A program made the translations under genes and the position numbers. From Moorella humiferrea (GTDB taxonomy: Bacteria > Bacillota > DSM-521 > Neomoorellales > Neomoorellaceae): a stretch of DNA of 64,000 bases. Position 1 is the first letter of the stretch, and every line of letters begins with the position of its first letter. Of the stretch, positions 1-13,504 are shown one piece after another. The notes beneath the pieces were generated by a model. That model had not been told where the DNA came from, did no database searches, and was given only the letters and a program-made list of their open reading frames with translations. The DNA lies in the NCBI RefSeq assembly GCF_039233145.1, contig NZ_CP136419.1, positions 1,710,001-1,774,000 of the forward strand, given 5' to 3'.

Positions 1-565
1 AAAAGATGGGTTCCAGCTGTTCGGTGGTGGTACCTAAAAGAATAATGTCGCCCGTAGACCCATGCATATTAAAGAGACCGCTGCCCCGGAACTCCCAGAG
101 ATCGCATAGGGCCCTGAGAAAATCAGTTTTATAGAATTTGCTGGCCGGTTGATTTACCCGTATGGTATGGAAATGGGCCACCGAAGGATATTTTTCCGGC
201 ACGTCGGAATAACGCCCGATTACACCACCGCCGTATCCGAATACGCCGACGATACCTCCATGTTTCCAATGGGTTTCCCCGTCTTCAAAAGACAATTCCA
301 GTTGCCCCAGGAGGTCGTCCACTACATCCTGGTCAAGCATGAGGCGGTCCTTGGGGAGCTTTTTGCGCCGCAGCGCCTCGCGTTTGGCATCGGTGACAAA
401 GCTCGGCCAAGGCCCCTTCTCTAATTCTTCCAACATAGGTATACTGTGTTTGATCTTAAAATCCTTTAACTCTTCTTCGCTATAATTATGCAATTCTTCG
501 TCGGTGTAAATACGCAGTTCTTCATACTTTATTTCCTTTTGCGGTCGCTTGGGTTTAAATTCCAT
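1..565 (-). CDS. dsrA: Canonical dissimilatory sulfite reductase alpha subunit, N-terminal part
   Basis: Partial gene, cut by the left window edge; 188 codons are visible from the ATG at 563-565, which follows a GGGGG ribosome site. DsrA forms the siroheme sulfite reductase of the cytoplasm with DsrB and reduces sulfite to a DsrC-bound trisulfide. The match is direct: residues 48-59 read LEKGPWPSFVTD, 96-114 hold ETHWKHGG and VFGYGGG, and 161-178 read GSGLFNMHGSTGDIILLG, all DsrA hallmarks. The siroheme/Fe4S4 cysteines lie outside the window. The first 40 or so residues form a charged extension before the usual DsrA start, rich in Glu, Lys and Tyr. The gene is separated by 334 bp from selD upstream, so it is probably its own transcription unit with dsrB beyond the edge. 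Confidence 0.95.
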   Translation of the reverse strand, partial: MEFKPKRPQKEIKYEELRIYTDEELHNYSEEELKDFKIKHSIPMLEELEKGPWPSFVTDAKREALRRKKLPKDRLMLDQDVVDDLLGQLELSFEDGETHWKHGGIVGVFGYGGGVIGRYSDVPEKYPSVAHFHTIRVNQPASKFYKTDFLRALCDLWEFRGSGLFNMHGSTGDIILLGTTTEQLEPIF

Positions 566-899: not shown

Positions 900-1949
900 T
901 TATGGTAGGACAACTATCTCACCCGAACCGTGGTCTACTTCACCGATAACCGCGGCCGCCGTAACTCCCCTTTCTTTTAAAGCCGCCAGTAAGGCTTTCG
1001 TTTTTTCTTCCGCCACGGCGATTAATAAGCCCCCGGATGTCTGGGGATCGCAGAGGATGTCAAAAAGGTCCTCGGGGACGCCGGCCCCCACCTTTACATC
1101 CTTTTCAATGTGACGGCGGTTGTTATAAGCCCCACCTGGTATCAGGCCCATGGCGGCAAACTCCCGGGCTTGGGGAAAGACGGGAATGGCTCCTGCATGG
1201 AACACCAGGTTCACGCCGCTTCCTTTGGCCATTTCCAGTCCATGACCCAAAAGCCCGAAGCCGGTAATGTCCGTGCAGGCATGGACGCCGACGGCCACCA
1301 TGGCCGCAGACGCATCACGGTTTAAGGTGGCCATCCATCGACTGACTTCCTGTTCCAGTTCGGGCGTTGCCATTTCGGCTTTGATGGCCGTAGTTATAAT
1401 ACCCGTACCCAGCGGTTTAGTAAGAATCAGCCGGTCGCCCGGCCGGGCTCCGCAGTTCGTTACTATTTTCTCAGGATGAACGATGCCGGTTACGGCCAGT
1501 CCATATTTCGGTTCTTCATCTTCGATGCTGTGACCGCCGACTAAAACGGCGCCGGCTTCTAGGACCTTTTCAGCCCCGCCCTTAAGGATCTCCCCCAGCA
1601 CATTTATATCAACCTTCTTGGTGGGAAAGGCTACGATATTCATGGCCGTCAGGGGCGTACCGCCCATGGCGTAGACATCGCTTAATGAGTTGGCCGCTGC
1701 TATCTGGCCGTAAAGGTAGGGATCGTCGACAATGGGCGTAAAAAAATCCACCGTTTGAATAATGGCCAGGTCGTCCGTGAGGCGGTACACGCCGGCATCG
1801 TCAACGCTGTTCATGCCTACCAGGAGATCGGGATGCTCCATTGCCGGAAGGTACTGGAGTATCTGATTCAGGGTCCCCGGACCCACCTTGGCCGCTCACC
1901 CGGAGCTGCATGAAAGCTGGGTTAGTTTAGGTTTATCGGCTTGTCCCAT
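900..1949 (-). CDS. selD: Selenide, water dikinase (selenophosphate synthase), a selenoprotein
   Basis: Makes selenophosphate, the selenium donor for selenocysteine and selenouridine, from selenide and ATP. The reading frame starts at the ATG 1947-1949, preceded by a perfect GGAGGT eight bases upstream, and runs 349 codons with an in-frame TGA at 1896-1898 (codon 18). That codon sits exactly where SelD has its catalytic Cys/Sec: the peptide is LSCSSG-Sec-AAKVGPG, followed by the SelD body (GGTPLTAMNIVAFP, VGGHSIEDEEPKYG, LTKPLGTGI, DITGFGLLGH, CDPQTSGGLL). A GTG start after the TGA would remove the catalytic loop, so read-through is the better model; a short hairpin just after the UGA supports it. 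It lies after the TusA-like gene and probably belongs to the same operon. Confidence 0.95.
1871..1884 (-). promoter_or_regulatory. Candidate bacterial SECIS hairpin in selD
   Basis: On the coding strand GGGTC pairs with GACCC around the 4-nt loop CGGG. The stem starts 11 nt after the in-frame UGA and the loop centre lies about 18 nt after it. This spacing agrees with bacterial SECIS elements, which sit inside the coding region just after the Sec codon. Confidence 0.6.
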
Positions 1950-2024
1950 TTTTGCCACCTCCTTTTTCATTTATTTTACCAGTCCCTATCTATCCCATGT
2001 ATAACAATTAATCATAATAAAAAA

Positions 2025-2038
2025 GCCCCGTATGGGAC
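2025..2038 (-). terminator. Weak hairpin with T-run between tusA-like and selD
   Basis: Minus-strand GTCCC-ATAC-GGGGC (5 bp with one G-T pair) followed by TTTTTTATTATG. It looks like a leaky terminator or attenuator that would lower selD expression relative to the upstream genes. Confidence 0.45.
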
Positions 2039-2045
2039 CGATATA

Positions 2046-2279
2046 TTAAGAAGGCGCTTTCTTGCGAATTAAGTAGGAATAATAGTCTTCGCGTATTTCT
2101 TTTTTGATAATAGTATGACCTGCCTGCTGACACCATGCAGGCAAATCGAACTCTGCCGCCAGATCGTCCACCCATACCTCCAGCAGTTCGCCCGGTTTTA
2201 GCTTCTGCATCTGCTTGGCCGTCTTCATAAGCGGTGCGGTACAGTTCATGCCCCGGCAGTCCAGTATTTTCCGGGTCAC
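2046..2279 (-). CDS. TusA/SirA-family sulfur carrier-like protein
   Basis: A 77-residue protein of the TusA fold, whose members carry persulfide on a conserved cysteine and pass it to sulfur acceptors; relatives (YedF type) are linked to selenium metabolism. The N-terminus DCRGMNCTAPLMKTAK aligns with the family signature around the active cysteine (Cys13), but the usual CPxP is CTAP here, so the first proline is lost. A second cysteine is at position 50 (PAWCQQAG). GTG start overlaps the stop codon of the upstream HTH gene by one base (TAGTG), so translation is coupled. Placement between the dsr genes and selD suggests a carrier for sulfur or selenium, but the substrate is unknown. Confidence 0.8.
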   Translation of the reverse strand: MTRKILDCRGMNCTAPLMKTAKQMQKLKPGELLEVWVDDLAAEFDLPAWCQQAGHTIIKKEIREDYYSYLIRKKAPS

Positions 2280-3181
2280 TAAGGTTCTTCCTCCCTCAAA
2301 TTGCCCTGTAAGAGTTTGATTAAATTAATTACAAGATTTCGTTCCTCTTCCCCGCTGCGGCTCAAAAAGCGGCGTATTTCCTGATACTGTTCTTCCGCAG
2401 CTCCCTGCAAAGGACGGCGGTTTTCGTTCAACGCATGGATAAAATCCAGTAATCCCCGTATTTCCCCTTCTTCCCAGCCGGCCAGGGCACGGACCACTTC
2501 CTGGAGAATCTGGCGCCGCAGGGCTTCCCTAACGTCGGCCGACAGACGGTAATCCAGGTAGAGATCTTCCTCCTCTTCTTCCATAAGGAAATAGCAGGTC
2601 GACACCCCTAAGGCCTCTGCCAGGCTGCTCAGGGTGGCCAAAGAAGGTTGTATGCGGTCGGTCTCGATCTGCCCGATGAGGCTGTGGGAAATACCTACCT
2701 GTTGCGCCAATTCTTTCTGGGTGAGGCCCATTTTTTCACGCAGGCGTTTTAGTTTATTCCCCAGGGTATCTTCCTGCCCGGAGCGCAATAGTGAACTGGG
2801 AGATACCTCCAAAACGGCCGCTAGTTTCTCTAAGGTTTTTAATGAGGCCGTCGAGCGGGAGCGTTCGATCTCGCTGATATGGGCCAGGGATACGCCGGAG
2901 CGCCGACTTAACTCGCTTAAGGTTATTCCCTTTTGCTCACGCAGGCGCCGCAGCCGGGCACCAATGGTATTTTTGTCACTGTTCCCATTTTCCCCTGTAA
3001 AGTAATTAATATCAACGTTGAAAATTCCGGCTATCTCTGTAAGGGTGGCCATGGAGAGACGCCTGATCCCTTTTTCTACCTCAACCATACAATCCGGGGC
3101 AATATCCAGGCGGTCTGCCAGTTCTTCCAGGGACATACCCCGTTCTTCCCTCAACTTTTTTAGTTTTTCCCCTATCGTCAT
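2279..3181 (-). CDS. Transcriptional regulator with three tandem XRE-type HTH domains
   Basis: 300 residues from the ATG at 3179-3181, chosen because GGAGGGG lies 11 bases upstream. Three Cro/CI-type helix-turn-helix repeats follow each other: residues 3-60, 72-130 and 140-198, each beginning with the pattern (I/L)GxxLxxLRExxG and ending in a pocket-like V(S/D)xxxL/YF. An acidic stretch (EEEEED, about 201-206) leads to a helical C-terminal part of about 95 residues with no recognised domain. Three fused HTH units in one chain are unusual; most family members carry one and dimerise. It ends where the tusA-like gene begins and starts 49 bp after dsrN, so it is a good candidate for the local regulator of the dsr/sel island. 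No target site is proven. Confidence 0.85.
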   Translation of the reverse strand: MTIGEKLKKLREERGMSLEELADRLDIAPDCMVEVEKGIRRLSMATLTEIAGIFNVDINYFTGENGNSDKNTIGARLRRLREQKGITLSELSRRSGVSLAHISEIERSRSTASLKTLEKLAAVLEVSPSSLLRSGQEDTLGNKLKRLREKMGLTQKELAQQVGISHSLIGQIETDRIQPSLATLSSLAEALGVSTCYFLMEEEEEDLYLDYRLSADVREALRRQILQEVVRALAGWEEGEIRGLLDFIHALNENRRPLQGAAEEQYQEIRRFLSRSGEEERNLVINLIKLLQGNLREEEP

Positions 3182-3230
3182 TTTGAAAAAAGCCCCTCCT
3201 TGTTTCCCCCACATCCGGTCCTAGACAAAT

Positions 3231-4586
3231 CTATCTCTTTCCCGCCGCAAGCATTACCAGGTTGGCAGCCCACTCGGGATGGGTGGGCGCGTAAATATGA
3301 TTGTAGCCGGCCAGAACGTGCTTGTATAGGATACCGTCCACCCGGCCGTCGATACCAAAGCCGCGCTGGACGCTGTAAAGAAATTTAACGTTTGTGCGTT
3401 CTAAATTAATCACTCTGGAATTATGGAACTCGTGGCCTTTGATGATGCTTCCCTGGCTGAAGAAGGGATTTTCTCCTTCCACTAATAGGCGCGTATAGCC
3501 GTGACCCTGGGGCCGAGAGGACATGGTGACATCAAAGGGCAAGGCTCCGCTCATTTCATACCAGCGTCCCTTGTAATTTAGGCGCCTGGCGAGATACATT
3601 AATCCCCCGCATTCGGCATATACGGGCATTCCTTCGGCTACGGCTTTTTTAACCTCACGGCGCAAAGTTACATTGGCCTCCAGCCGGGCGGCAAATACTT
3701 CTGGAAACCCGCCCCCTATATACAGCCCATCGACTATCGGTAGACCGGCATCTTCCAGGCTATTTATGGGTACAAGGGTGGCCCCCGCCTGGGCCAGAGC
3801 TTCTAGATTTTCCGGATAGTAAAAGGTAAAGGCACGGTCCTGAAAGACACCCAGGTGTACCCGCGGCGGAGGGAGCTGCGGCGTCTCCGCCGATGATGTA
3901 AGTTCCGGTACCTGGCTGGCAATGGCCAGTAGGGCGTCCAAATCTATATTGGCGCCAACGGCCGTGCCGGTTGCTGCCAGGGCGGTATGGAGGCTTTCGT
4001 TTTCAGCCGCCGGTATTAACCCCAGGTGGCGGTCCGGAATGAGAAAATCCCTCTTTTTTGGTAGTGCTCCTAGAACAGGTAATCCCGTATAATGTTCAAT
4101 GGAGCGACGCAGCATGTCTTCATGGCGGGGACGGGCAACCTGGTTTAAAATAACGCCGGCTATCTTTACCCGGGGGTCAAAATTCTGAAAGCCTTGCACC
4201 AGAGCCGCCGCGCTCCTGGTCATACGGACGGCGTCGATGACCAGGACCACGGGACATCCCAGGGTGCCGGCGACGGCCGCCGTACTGTTGCTTCCTTCCA
4301 AATCCAGGCCGTCGAAGAGGCCCATGGCGCCTTCGATGAGGGCCATATCGGCACCACGACAGCAGGCGGAGAAATGTGACCTTAGCTGTTCAGGTGACAG
4401 AAAATATAAATCAAGGTTACGGCAGGGACGGCCTGCGGCCAGAGTCAGCCAGCTGGGGTCGATGAAATCAGGCCCCTTTTTAAAGGGCTGGATCACCAAT
4501 CCCCTTTGTCTTAAGGCAGAAATCAGGCCCAGGGTAACGGTTGTTTTCCCCGACCGGCCGTGGGGCGCGGCGATGACCAGGCGCAC
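3231..4586 (-). CDS. dsrN: Siroheme/cobyrinate amidase of the DsrN/CbiA family
   Basis: 451 residues, GTG start after GGGGAGG. The N-terminal half is a dethiobiotin-synthase-like ATPase (APHGRSGKTT at 8-17, KKGPDFIDPSW, EGAMGLFDG); the C-terminal half is a class I glutamine amidotransferase with the nucleophile Cys in YAECGGLMYL, the GHEFHNSR segment and a THPEW histidine near the end. CbiA amidates cobyrinate in B12 synthesis; the homologue DsrN makes siroheme amide for sulfite reductase. Here it follows dsrB2 by 18 bp and no cobalamin genes are near, so the DsrN role is inferred from context. The symbol would become cbiA if B12 genes turn out to depend on this copy. Confidence 0.85.
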   Translation of the reverse strand: MRLVIAAPHGRSGKTTVTLGLISALRQRGLVIQPFKKGPDFIDPSWLTLAAGRPCRNLDLYFLSPEQLRSHFSACCRGADMALIEGAMGLFDGLDLEGSNSTAAVAGTLGCPVVLVIDAVRMTRSAAALVQGFQNFDPRVKIAGVILNQVARPRHEDMLRRSIEHYTGLPVLGALPKKRDFLIPDRHLGLIPAAENESLHTALAATGTAVGANIDLDALLAIASQVPELTSSAETPQLPPPRVHLGVFQDRAFTFYYPENLEALAQAGATLVPINSLEDAGLPIVDGLYIGGGFPEVFAARLEANVTLRREVKKAVAEGMPVYAECGGLMYLARRLNYKGRWYEMSGALPFDVTMSSRPQGHGYTRLLVEGENPFFSQGSIIKGHEFHNSRVINLERTNVKFLYSVQRGFGIDGRVDGILYKHVLAGYNHIYAPTHPEWAANLVMLAAGKR

Positions 4587-4604
4587 CTTTTTTCCTCCCC
4601 TAAA

Positions 4605-5678
4605 TTAATAACGAAAATGCAGGTCACGGCGAAAATTATTATAAGGAGGGCGTTTTTCGCCCAAATCTTCTACGGTGTCGGCACCGATTTTTTGTAAAAA
4701 ACGGCCCCAGCCAATACGTTCTATAAAAGCCGCCAGCCTTTCTCCGGGTAATCCTTCGCGGTGCCAGCAGTCGATAATCCCAGCCACGCGCTTAAGTATA
4801 GCCCCATACTCCACGGGCCGGGCCGGAACCCGCGGAAAAACGACGGCTGCCATTTCAGGCCCCCTTGCCCCATTTCCCCCATGACCTCCCACAGCTATGG
4901 CCACATAACTTTTTTTCTGCAGGCGGATGCCTTCCGGTGCCACCTGTACGCAAGAAGTGCAGCGCACACAGCGCTCCCTGTCGATGAGCGCCAACGTCCC
5001 TTTAGGCGTCGTCTTGGTACGAATGGCGCCTGTGGGGCACCAGGAAACCAAAAGGCCTATGTCGATATTGGCGGCCAGAAATTTCTCGATATCGACTTCG
5101 GGTACGGACTCATACAAACCCATAATGCCAATGTCGGCTTCTATACCGCCACCGCATTGATTGGGACATCCTCCCACAGATATCTTTAAAGGGGCAGGTA
5201 GATCGTTTTGAAAAAATTCCCCATAAAAATGGTCGGCTATGGCCTTGGCTATACTCGGCGCATCGACGGCAGCGTTCTGGCAGTGGATAAAGGAGGTACA
5301 GCATTTTACCTGGTGCAAGGAGCGGCCCGTTCCTCCAGGCGGAAAGCCGGCGTCCCGTAGCTTTCCCAGAAACTCGGTAAGTTTCTCGGGGCGTACCCCG
5401 ACAAATTCAAACCCCTGGCGACTTGTCCGCCGCCCGGTTAAGGCATAGACGCGGATCCAGCTGGCAAAGAGCCTTAAGGTGGATGCGCTCAAGAGGCCGT
5501 TGGGCGGCAATAGAACGCGAACGGTCAGTATGGCACTGCCGTCTACCGCCACATGTCGGATAACGCCGGGCTGTAAAATCTCATGCCATACCCAACTTCC
5601 CCGTCGAGCGAGCAAATCCTCCGGTATTTGCCGGCGATAATCAGGCATTATACCCGCCGGCAGGTCAGGCTGGTTCAA
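4605..5678 (-). CDS. Second, divergent dissimilatory sulfite reductase beta-like subunit (DsrB2)
   Basis: Start set at TTG 5676-5678: AAGGAGG lies 8 bases before it and the dsrA2 stop is 20 bp upstream, whereas longer frames overlap dsrA2 by 79 bp. The product has 357 residues. It carries the siroheme/Fe4S4 binding cysteines (CCTSFIHC and GGCPNQCGGG) and one ferredoxin cluster made of CVRCTSC plus the Cys of the preceding CPTGA. It is related to DsrB but clearly not its ordinary form, and pairs with DsrA2 encoded just upstream. The likely reaction is six-electron reduction of sulfite in the cytoplasm; nitrite or another oxyanion cannot be excluded. The pair could be an assimilatory-like or ancient Dsr; direct biochemical evidence is not available here. 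Confidence 0.85.
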   Translation of the reverse strand: MNQPDLPAGIMPDYRRQIPEDLLARRGSWVWHEILQPGVIRHVAVDGSAILTVRVLLPPNGLLSASTLRLFASWIRVYALTGRRTSRQGFEFVGVRPEKLTEFLGKLRDAGFPPGGTGRSLHQVKCCTSFIHCQNAAVDAPSIAKAIADHFYGEFFQNDLPAPLKISVGGCPNQCGGGIEADIGIMGLYESVPEVDIEKFLAANIDIGLLVSWCPTGAIRTKTTPKGTLALIDRERCVRCTSCVQVAPEGIRLQKKSYVAIAVGGHGGNGARGPEMAAVVFPRVPARPVEYGAILKRVAGIIDCWHREGLPGERLAAFIERIGWGRFLQKIGADTVEDLGEKRPPYNNFRRDLHFRY

Positions 5679-5698
5679 CTGCCGTGCCTCCTTCAGTT

Positions 5699-6829
5699 TT
5701 ACCTTTGAAACCCGTTTCTTTTGGGGCTTATGAGAATCTGTGGCTCTGTTTTCAGCCCCAGTTCCTTCAGTACCCATAAAGGCCCAACCCGGGCGATAAA
5801 ATCGCCAATGCGTTCCTTTTTGCGGGCATTATCGGCCCAAAGTTCTAGAAAGGCACCGAACAAATCACCCACCGGCGCATAATCTTCATCTTTAATGGGG
5901 ATAAAGGGCACAAGTACATACCCGACCATGGGTCCCTGGGGACCACGGTGACCGTACTTTCCCCCCACCACCCAGGCCACTCCGCGTTCCCGGCCGGGAC
6001 GCAAGGCGGGACAGAGATTGATGCAAACCATACAGTGCCAGCATTTCTCAGGGTCGATAATTAAAGTCGAACCCGTCCATGCCAACGCGCCGGTCGGACA
6101 GGATGAGACGAGAACGGAGATGTCGCCACCGTCGGCCAGCCAGGAGGCTAAGATTTCGTCGTCTATTTGCGGCAAATCACGGTAGACGCCGATAAAGGAA
6201 TGGTCTTTCTGCATCATGGCCCGGATGCAGTCATTGGGACACCCGGCAATGCCGCTTTTAACCTTCTGGGGATAACCGGGATACTGCTGTTCGTCAATAA
6301 AACGCTGCCCCAAATAAGTTGCCAGGGCCGGAGCGTCGATGAGGGCCGCGTCGCACCTCAACGGCCCGCAGCAGGCCGTAAGACACCGCAAATCATTGCC
6401 CGTCGATCCGACATCTAATCCGGCGGCATTCAGTTCCCTGACCATGGGTACCATTTGCTCTCTTGTGGTATATATTTCAATGGTGCCGCCGCTGGTAAAG
6501 TGAACAAGGCCTTTACCATAAGTTTCGGCACAAAAGGCCAACGCTTCCAAGGTATCCGCCGCTAACCAACCCCCCGCCGGTTGGAGAATGCGCAGATAAG
6601 CCGATTCTTCAATTATATCAGGACGGCCACTCCTGCGCACCCCTACTCCCGAGGGTAGTTCCGGGATGTTGATGTAACCGCCGTGTTCATAAGCGCTCTC
6701 CCCGGCGGTAAGACCGTGCTCATACATGGCCAGGGGATAGCGGCTCTTCTCCAGTTCCCGGACATGGCTGGGCGAAGGTCCTTTTAAAAGCTTACGACAG
6801 TAAGAAAACCCCTGATCTTCCTCCGGCAT
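5699..6829 (-). CDS. Second, divergent dissimilatory sulfite reductase alpha-like subunit (DsrA2)
   Basis: 376 residues; ATG at 6827-6829 begins three bases after the stop of the dsrC paralogue, with AAGGAG inside that gene's end. The order of motifs matches sulfite reductases: CCGPLRC and AGCPNDC bind the siroheme-coupled Fe4S4, then CPTGA and CWHCMVCINLCP form a ferredoxin module, followed by VGGKYGHRGPQGP. It shares little with the canonical DsrA at the left edge (no HWKHGG, no long N-terminal extension). Together with DsrB2 it should form an alpha2beta2 sulfite-reductase-like enzyme. The cotranscribed DsrC paralogue and DsrN suggest a self-contained second Dsr system. I infer sulfite as substrate from the family, not from a substrate-specific motif. 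Confidence 0.85.
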   Translation of the reverse strand: MPEEDQGFSYCRKLLKGPSPSHVRELEKSRYPLAMYEHGLTAGESAYEHGGYINIPELPSGVGVRRSGRPDIIEESAYLRILQPAGGWLAADTLEALAFCAETYGKGLVHFTSGGTIEIYTTREQMVPMVRELNAAGLDVGSTGNDLRCLTACCGPLRCDAALIDAPALATYLGQRFIDEQQYPGYPQKVKSGIAGCPNDCIRAMMQKDHSFIGVYRDLPQIDDEILASWLADGGDISVLVSSCPTGALAWTGSTLIIDPEKCWHCMVCINLCPALRPGRERGVAWVVGGKYGHRGPQGPMVGYVLVPFIPIKDEDYAPVGDLFGAFLELWADNARKKERIGDFIARVGPLWVLKELGLKTEPQILISPKRNGFQR

Positions 6830-6832
6830 TAT

Positions 6833-7087
6833 CTAACACTCCTTCGGCATGGGGAGGCCGGTTATCTGGCTGATTTCGCCGATAGGATTGCCCGGAAAAA
6901 GTTTATAAATATACTTTTTTTCCAAGCCGCTCAACTTAATTAGGTTGCGCAGGGTACAGATGGTGCGGTGCCCTTCATAATACTCAAAGCTAATATTTAT
7001 CAATTTCCAGTGGTCGTCGCCCAAGTCAATGCCCCGCGCCCTGGCCCGCTCGGCTATTTCCTTTTTTCGGGCTTCCGTCAACAGCAC
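6833..7087 (-). CDS. DsrC/TusE-family protein with a single C-terminal cysteine
   Basis: 84 residues, GTG start with GGGGGA nine bases upstream. DsrC is the sulfur-carrying partner of DsrAB; its mobile C-terminal arm holds two redox cysteines, and the trisulfide they bridge is the enzyme's product. Here the arm ends ITGLPMPKEC, so the penultimate-type cysteine is kept as the very last residue (Cys84), while the inner cysteine is replaced by Ser73. The N-terminus is also about 20 residues shorter than the neighbouring DsrC. It sits three bases ahead of dsrA2, so the two are coupled. One-cysteine relatives such as TusE are persulfide carriers and cannot form the intramolecular disulfide. I infer a dedicated partner of DsrA2B2. 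Confidence 0.88.
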   Translation of the reverse strand: MLLTEARKKEIAERARARGIDLGDDHWKLINISFEYYEGHRTICTLRNLIKLSGLEKKYIYKLFPGNPIGEISQITGLPMPKEC

Positions 7088-7117
7088 CTTCTACCATCCC
7101 CCTTGAATTGACATAAA

Positions 7118-7139
7118 GGCCAGCACTGGTGCGCTGGCC
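7118..7139 (-). terminator. Hairpin between the two dsrC genes
   Basis: Perfect 7-bp stem GGCCAGC/GCTGGCC with an 8-nt loop. The minus-strand tail is only TTTATG, so it may act as partial terminator or as an mRNA processing/stability element separating abundant dsrC message from the downstream dsrC2-dsrA2B2. Confidence 0.5.
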
Positions 7140-7151
7140 CCTCGACTTTTT

Positions 7152-7469
7152 TTACACGCAACCGGTAGGCTTGGGTAACCCGGCAATCTTACAGGCCCCT
7201 TTAGCCGGTCCGCTGGGGAACAGATCATAGATTTCCTTTAAGCTGAATCCTGTCTCTTTACAAAGTTTCCGGATCATGGGAGCAATACCGAACTGTTGAT
7301 AATACTGGCGCAGGTAGTTAACCACTTTCCAATGGTCCTCAGTAAGTTCGGTAACTCCTTCCGTCTCGGCCAGGGCCTTGGCTACGGCTTCATTCCACTT
7401 GCTGGGATCGGCAATGAAACCGTCTTCATCGACTTCAATTTCAAGGCCGCCAACATTAATTACTGGCAT
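7152..7469 (-). CDS. dsrC: DsrC, sulfur-carrier substrate protein of sulfite reductase
   Basis: 105 residues from ATG 7467-7469 (AGGAGGTG six bases upstream). The C-terminal arm GACKIAGLPKPTGCV carries both conserved cysteines, Cys93 and Cys104, so this is a full DsrC able to carry the trisulfide produced by DsrAB. The trisulfide is then reduced at the membrane by DsrMK, encoded immediately upstream in the same direction. The body has the family pattern DEDGFIADPSKWNEAVA and LTEDHWKVVNYLRQYY. It lies between dsrK and the single-cysteine paralogue. Confidence 0.95.
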   Translation of the reverse strand: MPVINVGGLEIEVDEDGFIADPSKWNEAVAKALAETEGVTELTEDHWKVVNYLRQYYQQFGIAPMIRKLCKETGFSLKEIYDLFPSGPAKGACKIAGLPKPTGCV

Positions 7470-7538
7470 GACCAGCACCTCCTGCTAGATTTTATTATAC
7501 CTGTGCCTTTAGGTTTAGGCTACAGGCTAATAACAATT

Positions 7539-8915
7539 TTATCGAACGAGGGCGTTGGCGATTAATTCGCTAATACCGGCAAAGCGTACCGGTAGCTTAT
7601 AATAATTGATGATTTCACGAAATTGGCCCTTGCAGTTGGAACACGCCAGGGCAACTATACTGGCCCCTGACGCCTTTATCTGCTCGGCCTTAAGCTTGCC
7701 GTAGGTTTCCATGCGGAATTTAAGAAAATCTCCCTTTTCCATAATAGCAAAACCACTGCCGCCGCCGCAACAGATGCTCATTTCCCGGTTGGGTTCCAGT
7801 TCGCGAAAATCCTTGCAACAGGCTTTAAGAATCCGGCGCGGCTCTTCATAAAGCCCTCCCAGACGCCCCAGCTTGCAGGAATCATGGTAGGTAACCGGCT
7901 CCGGATTTTTTTCAGGATCAACCTTGATGCGGCCTTCGCGGATCCATTCGTCTTCCAGTTCTAAAATGCTCTTGACCTCGAAGGGTCTTTCCTCCGGCGG
8001 TATAAGCCTCTGCATCAAATACTTTAACGCTTCAAAGGCATGGCCGCATTCGCCCACAACCAGGGTCTTGACGCCGAGTTTTTTAGCCGTCTCCACGTGG
8101 GCCTTAACGACTGCCGTAAATTCTACGTCGCTGAAAAATACTCCATAGTTAACGGCATCGTTAACCCCTGTGGCCGGCGAGTTCAGGGTCCAGTCCACCC
8201 CGGCGGCATCCATCACCTCGGCCGCACCCATGACCGTTTCGGCAAAGGCCAGGTAATCGCCGGCGTTATGCATCAGCAGGTATTCGGCACCGACCTTATC
8301 AACGGGTATTTTAACCTTATAGCCCTTTGTATCCTCAATTTCTTCCTCGAGAAATTCGATCATATCCAAAAAGGCGTTGGCCGGAGTGCCGGTGGCGTTG
8401 CCTAATTTTAACTGCTTCTGGGTACCGTTTTTCTTCAGCTCGTCGGGCGCGATATCGATGGCATCAAAAATTTTCCTGGCTTCCCTGGCGATAACGCCGT
8501 TATCGATGGCCACCGGGCAGACGTAGGCGCATCTACGGCAAATGGTGCAGCGGTAAATGTTTTCTGCCATGGCATCGAGTTTTTCTTCCGTCAGGTCTTC
8601 TGCCCCAACTAATTTGGGGAAGAGCCTGCCGGGAAGGGTAAAATAGCGTTTATAGATTTTACGCAACATATCAGCACGATAAACAGGGTGATAAATTTCC
8701 TTGCGCCCGCTTGCCAGGTATACGGGGCAAACCTCGGCGCAGGTGCCGCACTTCATACAAGTATCCAGGGACAATGTATAGGGTAGCCAAAAGGTCCAGT
8801 TATCCCTTTGCTGGAGAGATTTCTTCATGGCCTGCAGAAATTTTTCCACCCGCGGTTCCTCGGGCCTAAGGGTCTCATCGGATAGCACCCGGTAATCGTC
8901 AAAGACCTTGCGCAT
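7539..8915 (-). CDS. dsrK: DsrK, iron-sulfur subunit of the DsrMK complex (HdrD-like)
   Basis: 458 residues. Two ferredoxin motifs near the N-terminus (CMKCGTCAEVCP at 53-64 and CTICRRCAYVCP at about 122-133) are followed by a C-terminal CCG domain with YHDSCKLGR, CCGGGSG and ACSNCKG, which in HdrD-type proteins holds the special cluster that cleaves disulfides. DsrK is thought to reduce DsrC trisulfide on the cytoplasmic face, taking electrons from membrane subunit DsrM. The start overlaps the dsrM stop (TAATG), giving one-to-one coupling. No dsrJ, dsrO or dsrP is present, as in Gram-positive sulfate and sulfite reducers. Confidence 0.92.
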   Translation of the reverse strand: MRKVFDDYRVLSDETLRPEEPRVEKFLQAMKKSLQQRDNWTFWLPYTLSLDTCMKCGTCAEVCPVYLASGRKEIYHPVYRADMLRKIYKRYFTLPGRLFPKLVGAEDLTEEKLDAMAENIYRCTICRRCAYVCPVAIDNGVIAREARKIFDAIDIAPDELKKNGTQKQLKLGNATGTPANAFLDMIEFLEEEIEDTKGYKVKIPVDKVGAEYLLMHNAGDYLAFAETVMGAAEVMDAAGVDWTLNSPATGVNDAVNYGVFFSDVEFTAVVKAHVETAKKLGVKTLVVGECGHAFEALKYLMQRLIPPEERPFEVKSILELEDEWIREGRIKVDPEKNPEPVTYHDSCKLGRLGGLYEEPRRILKACCKDFRELEPNREMSICCGGGSGFAIMEKGDFLKFRMETYGKLKAEQIKASGASIVALACSNCKGQFREIINYYKLPVRFAGISELIANALVR

Positions 8916-9577
8916 TATTCCATTTCACCCCACTTGACCTTGTGGTAGGTAAAATACTTGACGGCGAAGTGCGCCATACGGGTAAAGGGAATGTAGATCA
9001 TAAAAAGCCACAACAACAGCAAAAAGACTAAATAGTTTTCCGGTAGAGGCAAGTGGGGCTTAAAGGTCAATAAACCGATGAAATAGCTCCTAAAGGTAAA
9101 ATCACTGAGGGCCCCGCTCATCAAGGCGGTAAACGCTAAGAAGAAAATGAATAGAAGATTCAAGTATTCTACAGGTGTGGATATCTGGCGCAATTCAGGT
9201 ACAATGGCGCGCAGGAGAAACAAGAGACAGGAACCGGAAACCGCAAGTATTCCCCCTACAACGCCTAAATAGACGGCAAACGGCAGCCCTACTACAAGGC
9301 AAAACAGCCAAAAAACGACGGTATAAATGCCCCAGTGCATAACCAGGGAAGGAAACCATAATTTGCGGTTGTGATGAAAGAGGCTGCGAAGGGTAAATAC
9401 CTCCATCAAAAGCTCACTTATCTGTCCCCCCAGGGTGCGCGGATACGGAAAAAGCTCCCAGTGCAGGTTAACCGGGGCTTTTAACCAGTAAACCACCTTG
9501 TAACCCAGCCCCAGGATCAGGGCGGCAATCGCTATATACGGCAGTACGCCTCCGATGAATGATTGCCAGAAAGTCAT
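8915..9577 (-). CDS. dsrM: DsrM, cytochrome b-type membrane subunit of DsrMK
   Basis: 220 residues with five or six hydrophobic segments (about 12-30, 75-95, 98-125, 140-160, 180-200), related to NarI-like cytochrome b. Possible haem ligands include His60/His61 and His75 in HHNRKLWFPSLVMHW and His207 near the C-terminus. DsrM would take electrons from menaquinol and hand them to DsrK. ATG start with AAGGAGGGC. It is shorter than DsrM of Gram-negative sulfate reducers, whose proteins are above 300 residues. It is the first gene of the run that continues through dsrK, dsrC and the second dsrAB to selD. Confidence 0.88.
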   Translation of the reverse strand: MTFWQSFIGGVLPYIAIAALILGLGYKVVYWLKAPVNLHWELFPYPRTLGGQISELLMEVFTLRSLFHHNRKLWFPSLVMHWGIYTVVFWLFCLVVGLPFAVYLGVVGGILAVSGSCLLFLLRAIVPELRQISTPVEYLNLLFIFFLAFTALMSGALSDFTFRSYFIGLLTFKPHLPLPENYLVFLLLLWLFMIYIPFTRMAHFAVKYFTYHKVKWGEME

Positions 9578-9610
9578 AATCTGCCCTCCTTATAGTTCCC
9601 TTCAAGAATG

Positions 9611-9622
9611 TCTACGTTCACG
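9611..9622. promoter_or_regulatory. Short motif shared with the yeiH upstream region, copy A
   Basis: TCTACGTTCACG, 34 bp before dsrM. It differs by one base from 11623-11634 upstream of yeiH. Both copies are followed by AT-rich DNA. Function unknown. Confidence 0.4.
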
Positions 9623-9635
9623 CAAGAACGACTAT

Positions 9636-9652
9636 GATATTTATAAAATATC
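9636..9652. promoter_or_regulatory. AT-rich palindrome upstream of dsrM
   Basis: GATATTT-ATA-AAATATC, a perfect 7-bp inverted repeat. Its core TATTTATAAAAT recurs at 9722-9733. It may be an operator or a -10-rich promoter region for dsrM. Confidence 0.4.
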
Positions 9653-9653
9653 A

Positions 9654-9681
9654 TTAGTTATTATGGTATTTATTTCGCTAT
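9654..9681. promoter_or_regulatory. Shared sulfur-island element, copy 2 (upstream of dsrM)
   Basis: 28 bp about 77 bp before dsrM. Plus strand begins TTAGTTATTATGG and ends TTTCGCTAT. See copies at 775-802 and 11680-11708. Confidence 0.5.
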
Positions 9682-9733
9682 AAAGGGCGGTTTTCCTCCT
9701 GCCGGCAAAAAATTTTTTTGGTATTTATAAAAT

Positions 9734-9764
9734 CAGTAGGAGGGGACAACGTCCCCTCCTACTG
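9734..9764 (-). terminator. Terminator after the small membrane protein gene
   Basis: Perfect 14-bp stem CAGTAGGAGGGGAC with its complement around a 3-nt loop, 15 nt after the stop at 9780. The minus-strand tail ATTTTATAAATACC is U-rich. It separates yeiH and its small partner from the dsrM operon. Confidence 0.8.
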
Positions 9765-9779
9765 ACTAGAAATTATCGC

Positions 9780-9917
9780 TTATAAAGTATGGGTCACCAG
9801 GAGCAGCACTACAAGGAGCACTATTCCCAATCCCAAACTGAAGCTTATCAGCTTTTTCTCGGCAGGCATCAAATCAAACCATTCTTCTTCTTGCGGCAGG
9901 CGTTCCTGTTCGGCCAT
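9780..9917 (-). CDS. Small single-pass membrane protein (45 aa)
   Basis: Found by eye: ATG 9915-9917 follows AAAGGAGGGAGC and encodes 45 residues. The first 22 are acidic and soluble (MAEQERLPQEEEWFDLMPAE), then residues 24-41 form one hydrophobic helix rich in Leu and Val, ending VTHTL. It starts 16 bp after the yeiH stop and is followed by a strong terminator, so it is almost certainly cotranscribed with yeiH. I do not know its family. A role as small subunit or stabiliser of the YeiH-like transporter is an inference from pairing only. Confidence 0.75.
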   Translation of the reverse strand: MAEQERLPQEEEWFDLMPAEKKLISFSLGLGIVLLVVLLLVTHTL

Positions 9918-9933
9918 TTCTAGCTCCCTCCTT

Positions 9934-11397
9934 TTAAGCCACCGGCGGCGGGGTTATGCCGTGGAAGAACAACCAGGAAATCAACAAGCCGATCCAAATG
10001 ATGAAGCCGAAGAGGCATACCACATATACAACAGCCAGTTTCCCCATGCCTTCTTCCCAAAGCTTTTTAAAGTTGGACATTAAGCCGATGGTGAAGAAGG
10101 TTAAGGCAAAGAAGATGCCGCGGAAGTTGCCCGCCTGACCGATACCGGCATTCAAAAGTTTCAATGTATCTTTACCTACACTCTTACCTATCAATATGAC
10201 CAGGATAAACAGGGCGGCGTAGCCGAGAACGAATTTCGGGAAGCGCAGCCAGATTTCGCCTGCGTTCACCTTTTCCCCTTCCCGCCGGTCGATCTTCCAG
10301 GACCAGATAATGGCAAGGATAAAGGCCCAAATGGCAATGAAAATATCAATGAAAACCTTCACCGTCGTCGTCGCCATGAGCATCCAGCCTTCCTGCCACT
10401 TGACACCCAGGGCGCTGATGGCCTTACTGCGGATCAAAGCGTCGACCATCGCTCCGCTGGCGGCCGCGGCGCCGTCGGTTTTGACGGCCAGACCCATCCA
10501 GGCGCCCGCCACCATGGGCTCTTTGTAAAGCCAGGCCTGGGCGGCAAAGGGAAGGATAATCAGTTCAACTACGGCAAAGATAACAACCAGGGAGGAGACA
10601 ATAATGGGAATGACCGGACGGGCCTTGATGGCGCCTCCCGTGGCAATGGCCGCGGAAACGCCGCAGATGGAAATGCCCGAGGCCAGGGGTGCGGCCCACT
10701 CCGGAGTAAATTTAAAGTAACGGCGGGCGATGAAATAAACGAGGGGCCAATAGATGAGATAAGCTTCAATAATGGCACAGAGTCCCCGGAAGACAACCTG
10801 GGCCGTCAAACCGGTGGATTGCAGGGCGTTGAGGCCGATCTGGCCGCCGAGGATAACGATGGCTGTTTTGACAAACCATTCCGGTTTTGTCGCTTCCTGT
10901 AAGTAACGGGTCAGGCCCGGGAAAAGATTACCGATGATCAAACCTACAATCAACGCGATGATAAATCCTGATTCTCCCGTCATACGCAATGACCAGGGGA
11001 TATTCAATTTCGCCAGCTGGTCGGGAGTGGCGGCAATATAGGCATAGTTTCCGATCATCCAGCAGATATAGGTGATGAAGAAGATAATGGTAAAACCGCC
11101 GATGAAGCGGGGCACGTTGCCGCCCATAGAAGCCACACCGATGCTTAGAACTACCGTCAAGAATATATACGTCAAGATAAGGGCTATAAAGCCAGGCAGG
11201 CCTTTGTAAACGTCGGATACGGGCGTAAGGGCTTTGGACAAATCGAGCCACATGTTAGTTTTAACCGCCCAGCCCAGGAGATCGACGCCACCTATTTTTA
11301 GAAAACCGAGGAAAAAGATAAATAATCCGATCCACAGCGCCCACCAATCCTCGCTTCTTAAAAGGGGCGAGCGCGCACCTTTACCTTCCTGGACCAT
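9934..11397 (-). CDS. YeiH-family (putative sulfate/sulfite exporter) membrane protein
   Basis: 487 residues with about twelve hydrophobic segments. It matches the UPF0324/YeiH family in the segment LASGISICGVSAAIATGGAIKA split over two helices, and in KTDGAAAASGAMVDALI, both hallmarks of that family. The family is named putative sulfate exporter without firm proof. Next to two sulfite reductase systems, a role in moving sulfite, sulfate or another oxyanion is plausible. The N-terminus has an extra region of about 100 residues before the typical YeiH core (E. coli protein about 350), with three more helices. It has a 402-bp upstream region and thus its own promoter. Confidence 0.8.
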   Translation of the reverse strand: MVQEGKGARSPLLRSEDWWALWIGLFIFFLGFLKIGGVDLLGWAVKTNMWLDLSKALTPVSDVYKGLPGFIALILTYIFLTVVLSIGVASMGGNVPRFIGGFTIIFFITYICWMIGNYAYIAATPDQLAKLNIPWSLRMTGESGFIIALIVGLIIGNLFPGLTRYLQEATKPEWFVKTAIVILGGQIGLNALQSTGLTAQVVFRGLCAIIEAYLIYWPLVYFIARRYFKFTPEWAAPLASGISICGVSAAIATGGAIKARPVIPIIVSSLVVIFAVVELIILPFAAQAWLYKEPMVAGAWMGLAVKTDGAAAASGAMVDALIRSKAISALGVKWQEGWMLMATTTVKVFIDIFIAIWAFILAIIWSWKIDRREGEKVNAGEIWLRFPKFVLGYAALFILVILIGKSVGKDTLKLLNAGIGQAGNFRGIFFALTFFTIGLMSNFKKLWEEGMGKLAVVYVVCLFGFIIWIGLLISWLFFHGITPPPVA

Positions 11398-11622
11398 TTT
11401 GTTCCCCCCTAAAGTCTTTAATTCATCGCACCTTTTCTGTTTTCTTCCCCTAACTCGCTGTATTGCCCGCGGCCCTTCACCTCCCTCTAGCGCTCATTAC
11501 CACCTTCACTTGTAAGGCTTTATCGCCCCCCTTTTTTGTTTAATTTTAATTTTTATCTGCTACATTAATTAAACTTTTGTATTAATAAATATATTGTGAC
11601 CTCAGAATAATATATACTAAAA

Positions 11623-11634
11623 TCTACGCTCACG
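11623..11634. promoter_or_regulatory. Short motif shared with the dsrM upstream region, copy B
   Basis: TCTACGCTCACG, 226 bp before yeiH; one mismatch to 9611-9622. Confidence 0.4.
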
Positions 11635-11679
11635 AATAATACATATTGAAATATATTCTCGTTCCAACTTTCCTTTATG

Positions 11680-11708
11680 TTAGCTATTCATAAATAATAT
11701 TTCGCCGT
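11680..11708. promoter_or_regulatory. Shared sulfur-island element, copy 3 (upstream of yeiH)
   Basis: 29 bp, beginning TTAGCTATTCATAAAT and ending TTTCGCCGT on the plus strand, 283 bp before yeiH. Fourteen of the first sixteen bases equal copy 1 at 775-802. Confidence 0.5.
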
Positions 11709-11761
11709 CATTAAGAGTTTTCCTGCTGGAAGGAAAAATTTTTTGGAACAAATATAAAAAA

Positions 11762-11779
11762 CACCCTTCCAAAAGGGTG
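11762..11779 (-). terminator. Rho-independent terminator of rex
   Basis: Stem CACCC(TT)/GGGTG around a small loop, immediately followed on the minus strand by TTTTTTATATTTG; 20 bp after the rex stop. Confidence 0.8.
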
Positions 11780-11799
11780 CCAGTTATAGCGAAGGCTAT

Positions 11800-12450
11800 C
11801 TATTCTCCCCAGGTTTGTTCCCCTTCGTTACTGATATAATAGGCGAGGCGCTGGAGATCCAGGTTATAATCGGCGTTGTAGACCAGGACGTCAGGGGGCA
11901 CACTTAACGTGATGGGCGCGTAGCTCAAGATCCCCTTAATACCGTTTTTGACCAGCTCGTGGGCCACCTTCTGGGCCTCTTCCGCCGGTACGGCCACCAT
12001 GGCGATCTTGACGTCCTTTTCTTTTATCAATAGCGGCATATCCTCCATGGGCCTGATTTGCATGCCGCCTACTTCGAGGCCGATTTTTGCCGGATCCCGG
12101 TCAAAAACGCCCACCAGGTGGAAATGCCGGCCGTATTTACGGTTGTGCTCGGCTAAAGCCATGCCCAGCTTGCCGGCACCTACCAGGATGAAAGGCCACT
12201 CCCGGTCAAGGCCCAGGATGCGGGCTATGGCTTCTTTGAGGTAGGTTACATTGTAACCAACGCCGCGTTTGCCCAGCTCGCCGAACCAGGCCAGATCTTT
12301 ACGGATTACCGAAGGGTCTACGCCCACCCTGACCCCCAGGACCTGGGAAGATATTTCTTCTATGCCGTGCTCTTCTATTAAGTTAAGGCAGCGATAATAA
12401 AGGGGCAGGCGCTCAATGGTAGAACGCGGTATTTTAATCCGAAAGGGCAT
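11800..12450 (-). CDS. rex: Redox-sensing transcriptional repressor Rex
   Basis: 216 residues. Rex senses the NADH/NAD+ ratio and represses fermentation and respiration genes when NAD+ is high. The N-terminal winged helix (about 5-80) contains ISSQVLGVRVGVDPSVIRKD and the FGELGKRGVGYNV segment; a Rossmann fold follows with VGAGKLGMALA at about 92-102 and DRDPAKIG. Length is normal for Rex. It stands 31 bp after mltG and is closed by a terminator. No Rex operator was recognised in the sulfur-gene spacers. Confidence 0.95.
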   Translation of the reverse strand: MPFRIKIPRSTIERLPLYYRCLNLIEEHGIEEISSQVLGVRVGVDPSVIRKDLAWFGELGKRGVGYNVTYLKEAIARILGLDREWPFILVGAGKLGMALAEHNRKYGRHFHLVGVFDRDPAKIGLEVGGMQIRPMEDMPLLIKEKDVKIAMVAVPAEEAQKVAHELVKNGIKGILSYAPITLSVPPDVLVYNADYNLDLQRLAYYISNEGEQTWGE

Positions 12451-12481
12451 TGTAATCTACCTCGCTTTGGCTATTTTATTT

Positions 12482-13504
12482 TTAACGGGTCTGATAACGG
12501 GCTACCGCCTGGTTGTGCTCATCCAGGGTACGGCTAAAATAATGGGTGCCGTCGGGCTTGGCCACAAAGTACAGGTAATCCGTTTTCGCCGGCCTTAAAG
12601 CCGCCAAAAGCGATGCCCTGCCCGGATTGGCAATGGGCCCGGGCGGCAGGCCGTTGACCCGGTATGTATTATAAGGAGATTCGATCTCCAAATCCTTGTA
12701 CGTCAGGACCGGCTTGGGTTCAGGCAATAAATATTGAATCGTCGGATCGGCCTCCAGGCGCATGCCTTTATTTAGGCGGTTTACATACACACCGGCGATT
12801 AGGGGACGTTCGCTATCGACCCTGGCCTCTTTTTCCACAATGGAAGCCAAAATAACGATTTGCTTTGTATCTAAGTTTAATCCGGGGTCTTTCTCCCGGC
12901 TGATTTCCTGATAAACCTCCTGAAAACGTCTGAGCATCATCATTATGATTTCTTCCGGAGGGGTACCTTTGGCCACCCGGTAGGTATCGGGAAAAAGGAA
13001 ACCTTCCAACCTTTCCGGACCAGATACATCATCGGGCAAAAAATCAAAGGGATAATGGCGTACTGCTGCCTGTAAAAATTCTTCCTCCTCTGTCAAACCC
13101 TTCTGTTGAAGCATAGCGGCTATCTGTCGTACCGTGTATCCTTCGGGAACGGTAAACTCAATCTCCTCTACCTTTCCCGCAGCCAATAAATCCAGGATTT
13201 CCCGAAGGGAAAGGCCCGGTGAAATTAAATAATACCCCGGTTTTATCTTCCTGTCCAGCCCGGTAATTGACGTCAACAGGCGAAAGGCCCAGGGGCTTTT
13301 TATTATTCCCTTGCCGGCGAGCTCCGCGGCAACAACCGCCGAAGTAGCCCCCGGAGCAACATATACCTCAACGGCCGGCGCACCGGGTTTTTCTGGGGGC
13401 AATAAAAGGTTATAAAAATAGACGCCGACGATTAAGAATAAAATAATACTAAATAACACAGCAAAAATTGCTATCCGGCGCTTCGTGTCTGTCTCTTCCT
13501 CCAT
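12482..13504 (-). CDS. mltG: Endolytic murein transglycosylase MltG
   Basis: 340 residues; cleaves nascent peptidoglycan strands at the membrane and so sets glycan length. One N-terminal transmembrane helix (about 10-31) is followed by a LysM-like region and the YceG/MltG domain with the catalytic glutamate in IVEKEARVDSERP, the VNRLNKGMRLEADPTIQY motif and YNTYRVNGLPPGPIANPG. It has its own promoter at 13540-13568 and precedes rex. In Bacilli, mltG (yrrL) follows yrzB-yrrK-ireB-alaS just as here. Confidence 0.93.
   Translation of the reverse strand: MEEETDTKRRIAIFAVLFSIILFLIVGVYFYNLLLPPEKPGAPAVEVYVAPGATSAVVAAELAGKGIIKSPWAFRLLTSITGLDRKIKPGYYLISPGLSLREILDLLAAGKVEEIEFTVPEGYTVRQIAAMLQQKGLTEEEEFLQAAVRHYPFDFLPDDVSGPERLEGFLFPDTYRVAKGTPPEEIIMMMLRRFQEVYQEISREKDPGLNLDTKQIVILASIVEKEARVDSERPLIAGVYVNRLNKGMRLEADPTIQYLLPEPKPVLTYKDLEIESPYNTYRVNGLPPGPIANPGRASLLAALRPAKTDYLYFVAKPDGTHYFSRTLDEHNQAVARYQTR

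Follow-up and report, generated by a model that had tools for sequence, protein, structure and literature searches.

The dsrA2B2 operon and its neighbors

The stretch of DNA analyzed here, hereafter the window, comprises 64,000 nucleotides (positions 1710001-1774000) from the complete genome (2.67 Mb) of a Moorella (now Neomoorella) species, a thermophilic acetogen. Within it, a minus-strand operon runs in the order dsrM2-dsrK2-dsrC-dsrC2-dsrA2-dsrB2-dsrN-XRE-tusA, with intergenic gaps of 0 to 64 bp (Table 1). Past tusA lie selD and then canonical dsrA, dsrB, dsrD and a TPR gene, with dsrK-J-O-P-M following beyond the window. The preliminary description had placed a canonical dsrA at the left edge and, in an operon of its own, a divergent dsrA2/dsrB2 pair with a DsrC paralogue and DsrN, and the open reading frames bear this out. 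Its interval (4605-7087) takes in dsrB2, dsrA2 and dsrC2 but ends just short of dsrN, and it overlooked a normal two-cysteine dsrC directly upstream in the same operon.

Table 1. Features of the dsrA2B2 operon and the adjoining canonical dsrA (positions in the window)
Feature	Position	Strand	Description	Basis
dsrM2	8915-9577	-	short 220-aa NarI/DsrM-like membrane subunit	PF02665, E 3e-8
dsrK2	7539-8915	-	DsrK/HdrD-like Fe-S and CCG protein, 458 aa	synteny
dsrC	7152-7478	-	canonical, with CysB and CysA (CKIAGLPKPTGCV)	TIGR03342, 127.8 bits (cut-off 53.5); alignment
Stem-loop, ~12 pairs	7115-7142	-	in dsrC-dsrC2 spacer	fold, z -2.18
dsrC2	6833-7087	-	84-aa DsrC paralogue	PF04358, 57.4 bits (cut-off 24.9)
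dsrA2	5699-6829	-	alpha subunit	ORF, family matches, alignment
dsrB2	4605-5678	-	beta subunit, 357 aa; probable TTG start at 5678, longest ORF from 5777	
dsrN	3231-4586	-	CobB/CbiA-type amidotransferase	TIGR00379, 472 bits
XRE-type regulator	2279-3214	-	three HTH domains	conserved in module
tusA-like sulfur carrier	2046-2279	-		PF01206, 81 bits
Canonical dsrA, 5' part	2-565	-	remainder, dsrB, dsrD, TPR gene and dsrKJOPM outside the window	

The product of dsrM2 scores 43 bits against the NCBIfam DsrM model (cut-off 300) and that of dsrK2 336 bits against DsrK (cut-off 400); dsrM2 is missing beside the module at three other loci (L034, L056 and L057) and is therefore dispensable for it. For dsrB2, the TTG at 5678, preceded by a Shine-Dalgarno sequence (AAGGAGG), is preferred over an ATG at 5777 and a start near 5702. 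Selenocysteine insertion or stop read-through at a TGA in the G009 match was also rejected, as this TGA lies upstream of the probable start. DsrN is likely a siroheme amidase; a role as cobalamin CbiA is less likely, since another CobB/CbiA-type gene is encoded elsewhere in the genome (G000:C1:1175642), making dsrN the second copy. At every locus of sufficient length dsrN accompanies dsrA2B2, and the XRE regulator adjoins dsrN in all complete loci. The tusA gene is part of the module in Moorella and at L034; the module stands without it at L032, L033 and L035.

A GC-rich stem-loop separates dsrC from dsrC2 in 12 of 13 loci (the window, L023-L028, L030 and L032-L035); at L033 and L035, a C-G pair of the stem is replaced by T-A. 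It may set the level of dsrC above that of dsrC2A2B2 through partial termination or processing. At L034, from which dsrM2K2 is missing, a pyridine nucleotide-disulfide reductase-rhodanese fusion (10932-12629, minus strand) lies between dsrM and dsrC. A YeiH-type transporter (PF03601; 9934-11397, minus strand, in the window) adjoins the dsr operon in most carriers and is duplicated, or swapped for a distant homologue, in some of them.

Because selD lies directly downstream, with tusA between, a link to selenium or selenite reduction was considered. It was rejected, as dsr-less Moorellaceae keep mltG-(YeiH)-selD without XRE, tusA or dsr genes. Three such genomes (L104, L105 and L106), compared with window positions 900-12450, keep these genes together. 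In carriers, YeiH and selD flank the entire dsr block, which was thus acquired or lost as one cassette. With selD present in 21 of the 22 genomes of the class, it is a chromosomal landmark outside the Dsr system. Within the gene (900-1949, minus strand), a TGA falls in frame at 1896-1898 (SCSSG-TGA-AAKVGPGTL), which makes SelD look like a selenoprotein in its own right; its start is called 3' of this TGA by ORF callers.

Active site and phylogeny of DsrA2 and DsrB2

Pfam matches to NIR_SIR, NIR_SIR_ferr and DsrC are all well over their cut-offs, and both DsrA2 and DsrB2 contain the siroheme and ferredoxin domains. The best NCBIfam match of DsrA2 is dsrA (TIGR02064, 244 bits) and that of DsrB2 is dsrB (TIGR02066, 240 bits); neither reaches its curated cut-off (392.85 and 341.5, respectively), which marks the pair as divergent. 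Relatives with solved structures include the alpha and beta chains in the enzymes of Archaeoglobus and Desulfovibrio, with which they share the fold, the alpha/beta split, the sulfite ligands and the ferredoxin domains, at a beta-subunit identity to canonical DsrAB of about 27 to 32%. In A. fulgidus, sulfite is bound by Arg98, Arg170, Lys211 and Lys213 (PMC10202398; chain numbering in the structure file is one higher). Arg80, Arg148, Lys189 and Lys191 of DsrA2 align with these ligands and are invariant in 13 of 13 DsrA2 sequences, as are the cluster cysteines (Cys153, Cys159, Cys197 and Cys201; Cys244, Cys263, Cys266 and Cys269). The preliminary description held that all siroheme and Fe-S cysteines are kept; they are indeed all present, with four for the siroheme-coupled cluster and four for the ferredoxin cluster in each subunit, but those of DsrB2 do not occupy the canonical DsrB positions.

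Every canonical DsrB in the set with a readable motif has the pattern C...CCX3C, which we take to be the four siroheme-cluster ligands on the basis of the D. vulgaris structure. In DsrB2, by contrast, the second motif is GC-X3-C and an extra upstream cysteine gives CX5C (C135-X5-C141...C179-X3-C183, in the numbering of 4605-5702), so one ligand has moved; its ferredoxin domain has CP and CX2CX2C. The CX5C...CX3C arrangement is also that of DsrA and assimilatory reductases, and it recurs in the DsrB of basal type II enzymes from Rokubacteria and from an Acidobacteria MAG (L064, L065 and L067-L069). A monomer model of DsrB2 has dissimilatory sulfite reductase beta chains as its best matches; at pLDDT 69, and built from the start at 5702, which gives it eight surplus N-terminal codons, it is of low to modest confidence and too weak for siroheme-site geometry. 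Ratios of dN/dS are 0.06 to 0.18 for dsrA2 and dsrB2 and 0.04 to 0.23 for dsrC2, compared with 0.01 to 0.09 for canonical dsrA and dsrC, and dsrA2 and dsrB2 are thus under strong purifying selection. Elsewhere in the genome, at L008 (1389-2749, plus strand), a 309-aa siroheme-reductase-like protein precedes one of the DsrE family.

In a tree of DsrA and DsrB pooled, with the root between the two paralogues, which takes in bacterial-like Archaeoglobus but no other archaeal-type rows and no Chloroflexota basal type I rows, one member of the pair falls on the A side and the other on the B side (100/100). DsrA2 and DsrB2 each form one clade (100/100 and 100/99) outside canonical DsrA and DsrB (each 100/100), so the pair does not have the position within the canonical clade that the preliminary description had named as evidence against it. 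DsrB2 is the first branch of the B side, where the other rows are joined at 99/94. On the A side, long branches meet and the deepest branching order is weakly supported (88/31 and 90/56), with DsrA2 joined to L067 at 88/31. Rokubacteria, one contig of which carries two tandem dsrAB pairs of basal type (L065, 8646-13623, plus strand), are placed between the DsrA2/DsrB2 clades and canonical DsrAB. Lying outside both canonical and basal type II DsrAB, the pair belongs to basal type I. This fits the published placements, in PMC10504309 as the basal "second copy of Moorella" and in PMC12948486 as "basal type I DsrAB". Extra dsrAB copies are indeed on record for Moorella (PMC10504309, PMC7174415 and PMC12948486), as the preliminary description had noted.

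DsrC2 and its association with DsrB2

The DsrC paralogue is real, but it is not an ordinary DsrC. DsrC2 has no N-terminal segment, ends on Cys84 at the CysA position, carries Ser73 at the CysB position and has Cys44 in place of a proline of canonical DsrC. All 15 aligned DsrC2 sequences keep Cys44 and Cys84, and CysB is replaced by serine in 14 of them, including that of the window, which lacks the CX10C C-terminal motif of two-cysteine DsrC. With serine at CysB, DsrC2 cannot close an intramolecular trisulfide. The remaining sequence (L057, 4976-5230, minus strand) has cysteine at this position and is the sole DsrC2 with an intact CX10C motif, which suggests loss of CysB within the DsrC2 family. 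An AlphaFold model (pLDDT 88), whose top Foldseek matches are all DsrC or TusE (TM 0.73-0.77 to DsrC), predicts that DsrC2 folds like DsrC; in the tree it is a single clade apart from DsrC (100/99). Like TusE and the single-Cys DsrC-like proteins of E. coli and phages, it combines the DsrC fold with CysA only, but it differs from them in lacking the N-terminal segment, ending on cysteine, having the invariant Cys44 and being tied to DsrAB. Against the TusE family model it scores 33 bits (cut-off 191). The genome encodes only two DsrE-family proteins, neither of them close to the operon, and these findings lend no support to a possible TusE role in tRNA 2-thiolation with TusBCD.

Among 398 sampled genomes of the phylum, matches of DsrC2 grade (at least 129 bits, with the next DsrC scores at most 63 bits) occur in 13, exactly those that bear DsrB2. 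In near-complete genomes of the class, DsrB2 is present if and only if canonical DsrB is present, the one exception being an 84% complete MAG. The canonical partner is of two lineages, one Desulfovibrio/Archaeoglobus-like (in Moorella) and another in Thermanaeromonas and relatives. Its dsrAB lies directly ahead of dsrM2K2-C-C2-A2-B2 at L031-L033 and L035, and canonical dsrC is adjacent to dsrC2 in all complete Moorellia loci. The operon is conserved across several genera, and two genomes from a different family (L056 and L057) show the order A2-B2-N-XRE-C2, so the linkage of dsrC2 survives rearrangement. The carriers come from few clades, in two larger groups, and co-occurrence counts therefore overstate independence. 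The pair of the preliminary description has its own operon, but "system" is too strong a word: DsrN, DsrC and perhaps DsrMK probably serve canonical DsrAB as well, and no near-complete carrier in the sample lacks canonical DsrAB.

Earlier work on the second dsrAB of Moorella and basal type I (PMC10504309, PMC7174415 and PMC12948486) concerns the same lineage and genus and describes an early-branching pair near dsrC and dsrN. In the text consulted, it mentions neither the short DsrC2 with its single cysteine and its one-to-one pairing nor the ligand arrangement of DsrB2. In M. thermoacetica the canonical copy is in another region; at most loci here, it is nearby or in the same operon.

A candidate accessory sulfite reductase with a single-thiol partner

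Taking these observations together, we lean, at slightly better than an even chance, toward an accessory and competent siroheme sulfite reductase of basal type I that works with a dedicated single-thiol DsrC2 beside canonical DsrAB and DsrC. The invariant sulfite ligands, the complete set of cluster cysteines, the match of the DsrB2 model to beta chains and the low dN/dS speak for an active enzyme, and the exact pairing of DsrC2 with DsrB2, the linkage of dsrC2 and its DsrC-like model fold for the partnership; activity itself, its direction, and the docking, hand-off and sharing described next are inferred. Sulfite would bind at siroheme held by DsrB2 and be polarized by Arg80, Arg148, Lys189 and Lys191 of DsrA2. 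DsrC2, as a dedicated carrier or gamma subunit, would dock by its C-terminal arm, and Cys84 would accept the partly reduced sulfur. With CysB replaced by serine, this sulfur would be handed on from the single thiol to the neighboring canonical DsrC or to TusA, or a second thiol would release it. The module would run beside canonical DsrAB with DsrC, DsrN and membrane electron input common to both. Every near-complete carrier also has canonical DsrB, and both DsrAB copies are reported from the proteome of M. thermoacetica (cited in PMC10504309). No aprA above cut-off is found in the genome, so the expected feed of DsrA2B2 is sulfite or thiosulfate and not sulfate, and we speculate that the module is used at low sulfite or for sulfite derived from thiosulfate. 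The physiological record is mixed: M. sulfitireducens is described as a sulfite user, and M. carbonis uses neither sulfite nor thiosulfate (PMC11328732), which would count against this explanation if that species carries the module; an earlier paper (PMC7174415) states that Moorella do not reduce sulfite and that thiosulfate reduction is general in the genus. Also weighing against it are the few groups of carriers, the low-confidence DsrB2 model, the full CX10C motif at L057, by which loss of the trisulfide may be secondary and incidental, and, according to PMC12948486, the lack of an experimental demonstration of sulfite reduction by basal type I DsrAB.

The main rival reading, itself unlikely in our judgment, has DsrA2B2 working through the two-cysteine canonical DsrC encoded in its operon, by normal trisulfide chemistry, with DsrC2 acting as a non-catalytic plug or regulator. 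In Moorella, canonical dsrC does precede dsrC2 by 64 bp, it adjoins dsrC2 in all complete Moorellia loci, and DsrC2 is the faster-evolving protein (dN/dS as high as 0.23, compared with 0.02-0.09 for DsrC); however, a protein freed from thiol chemistry would not be expected to keep CysA and Cys44 invariant, and at L056 and L057 dsrC is apart from dsrC2, which still accompanies dsrN-XRE. More improbable is another substrate or direction for DsrA2B2C2 (thiosulfate, thionates, nitrite or oxidation of carrier sulfur), with TusA feeding DsrC2 as in TusA-TusE relays. The phage literature handles single-Cys DsrC proteins as TusE-like (PMC8190135), and this alternative also draws on the tusA gene of the operon and on the thiosulfate reduction reported for Moorella (PMC7174415). 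Against it stand the loci whose module lacks tusA, the distance of both DsrE-family genes from the operon, the invariant sulfite ligands and the fact that no oxidative-type marker was seen beside the module. That DsrA2B2 is a non-functional or relic copy is very improbable: its activity is undemonstrated and both subunits diverge from the canonical models, but the active site is invariant, selection is strongly purifying, the operon persists across several genera and expression of both copies has been reported.

A broader version of the favored explanation, that the deepest DsrAB lineage is a trisulfide-independent Dsr variant with a single-thiol DsrC, restricted in its working to cells in which canonical DsrAB operates too, is tentative and at present doubtful. 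Basal type II offers a comparison, being intermediate in the tree; in Rokubacteria it has a full-length canonical DsrC beside it and no DsrC2, whereas DsrA2B2, in contrast to canonical DsrAB as well, is paired with a DsrC2 that lacks CysB. While the DsrA2/DsrB2 pair was already known, we found no description of DsrC2, its one-to-one pairing with DsrB2 or the DsrB2 ligand pattern in the open-access literature that could be searched. Trees of dissimilatory sulfite reduction are rooted with basal type I DsrAB, and since activity of this branch is unproven, a paper from 2026 places the origin of the process later than the branch (PMC12948486). The conserved partner DsrC2 is a concrete biochemical handle on whether and how this root lineage reduces sulfite, and work on it would tell whether the trisulfide step of DsrC is older or younger than the enzyme.
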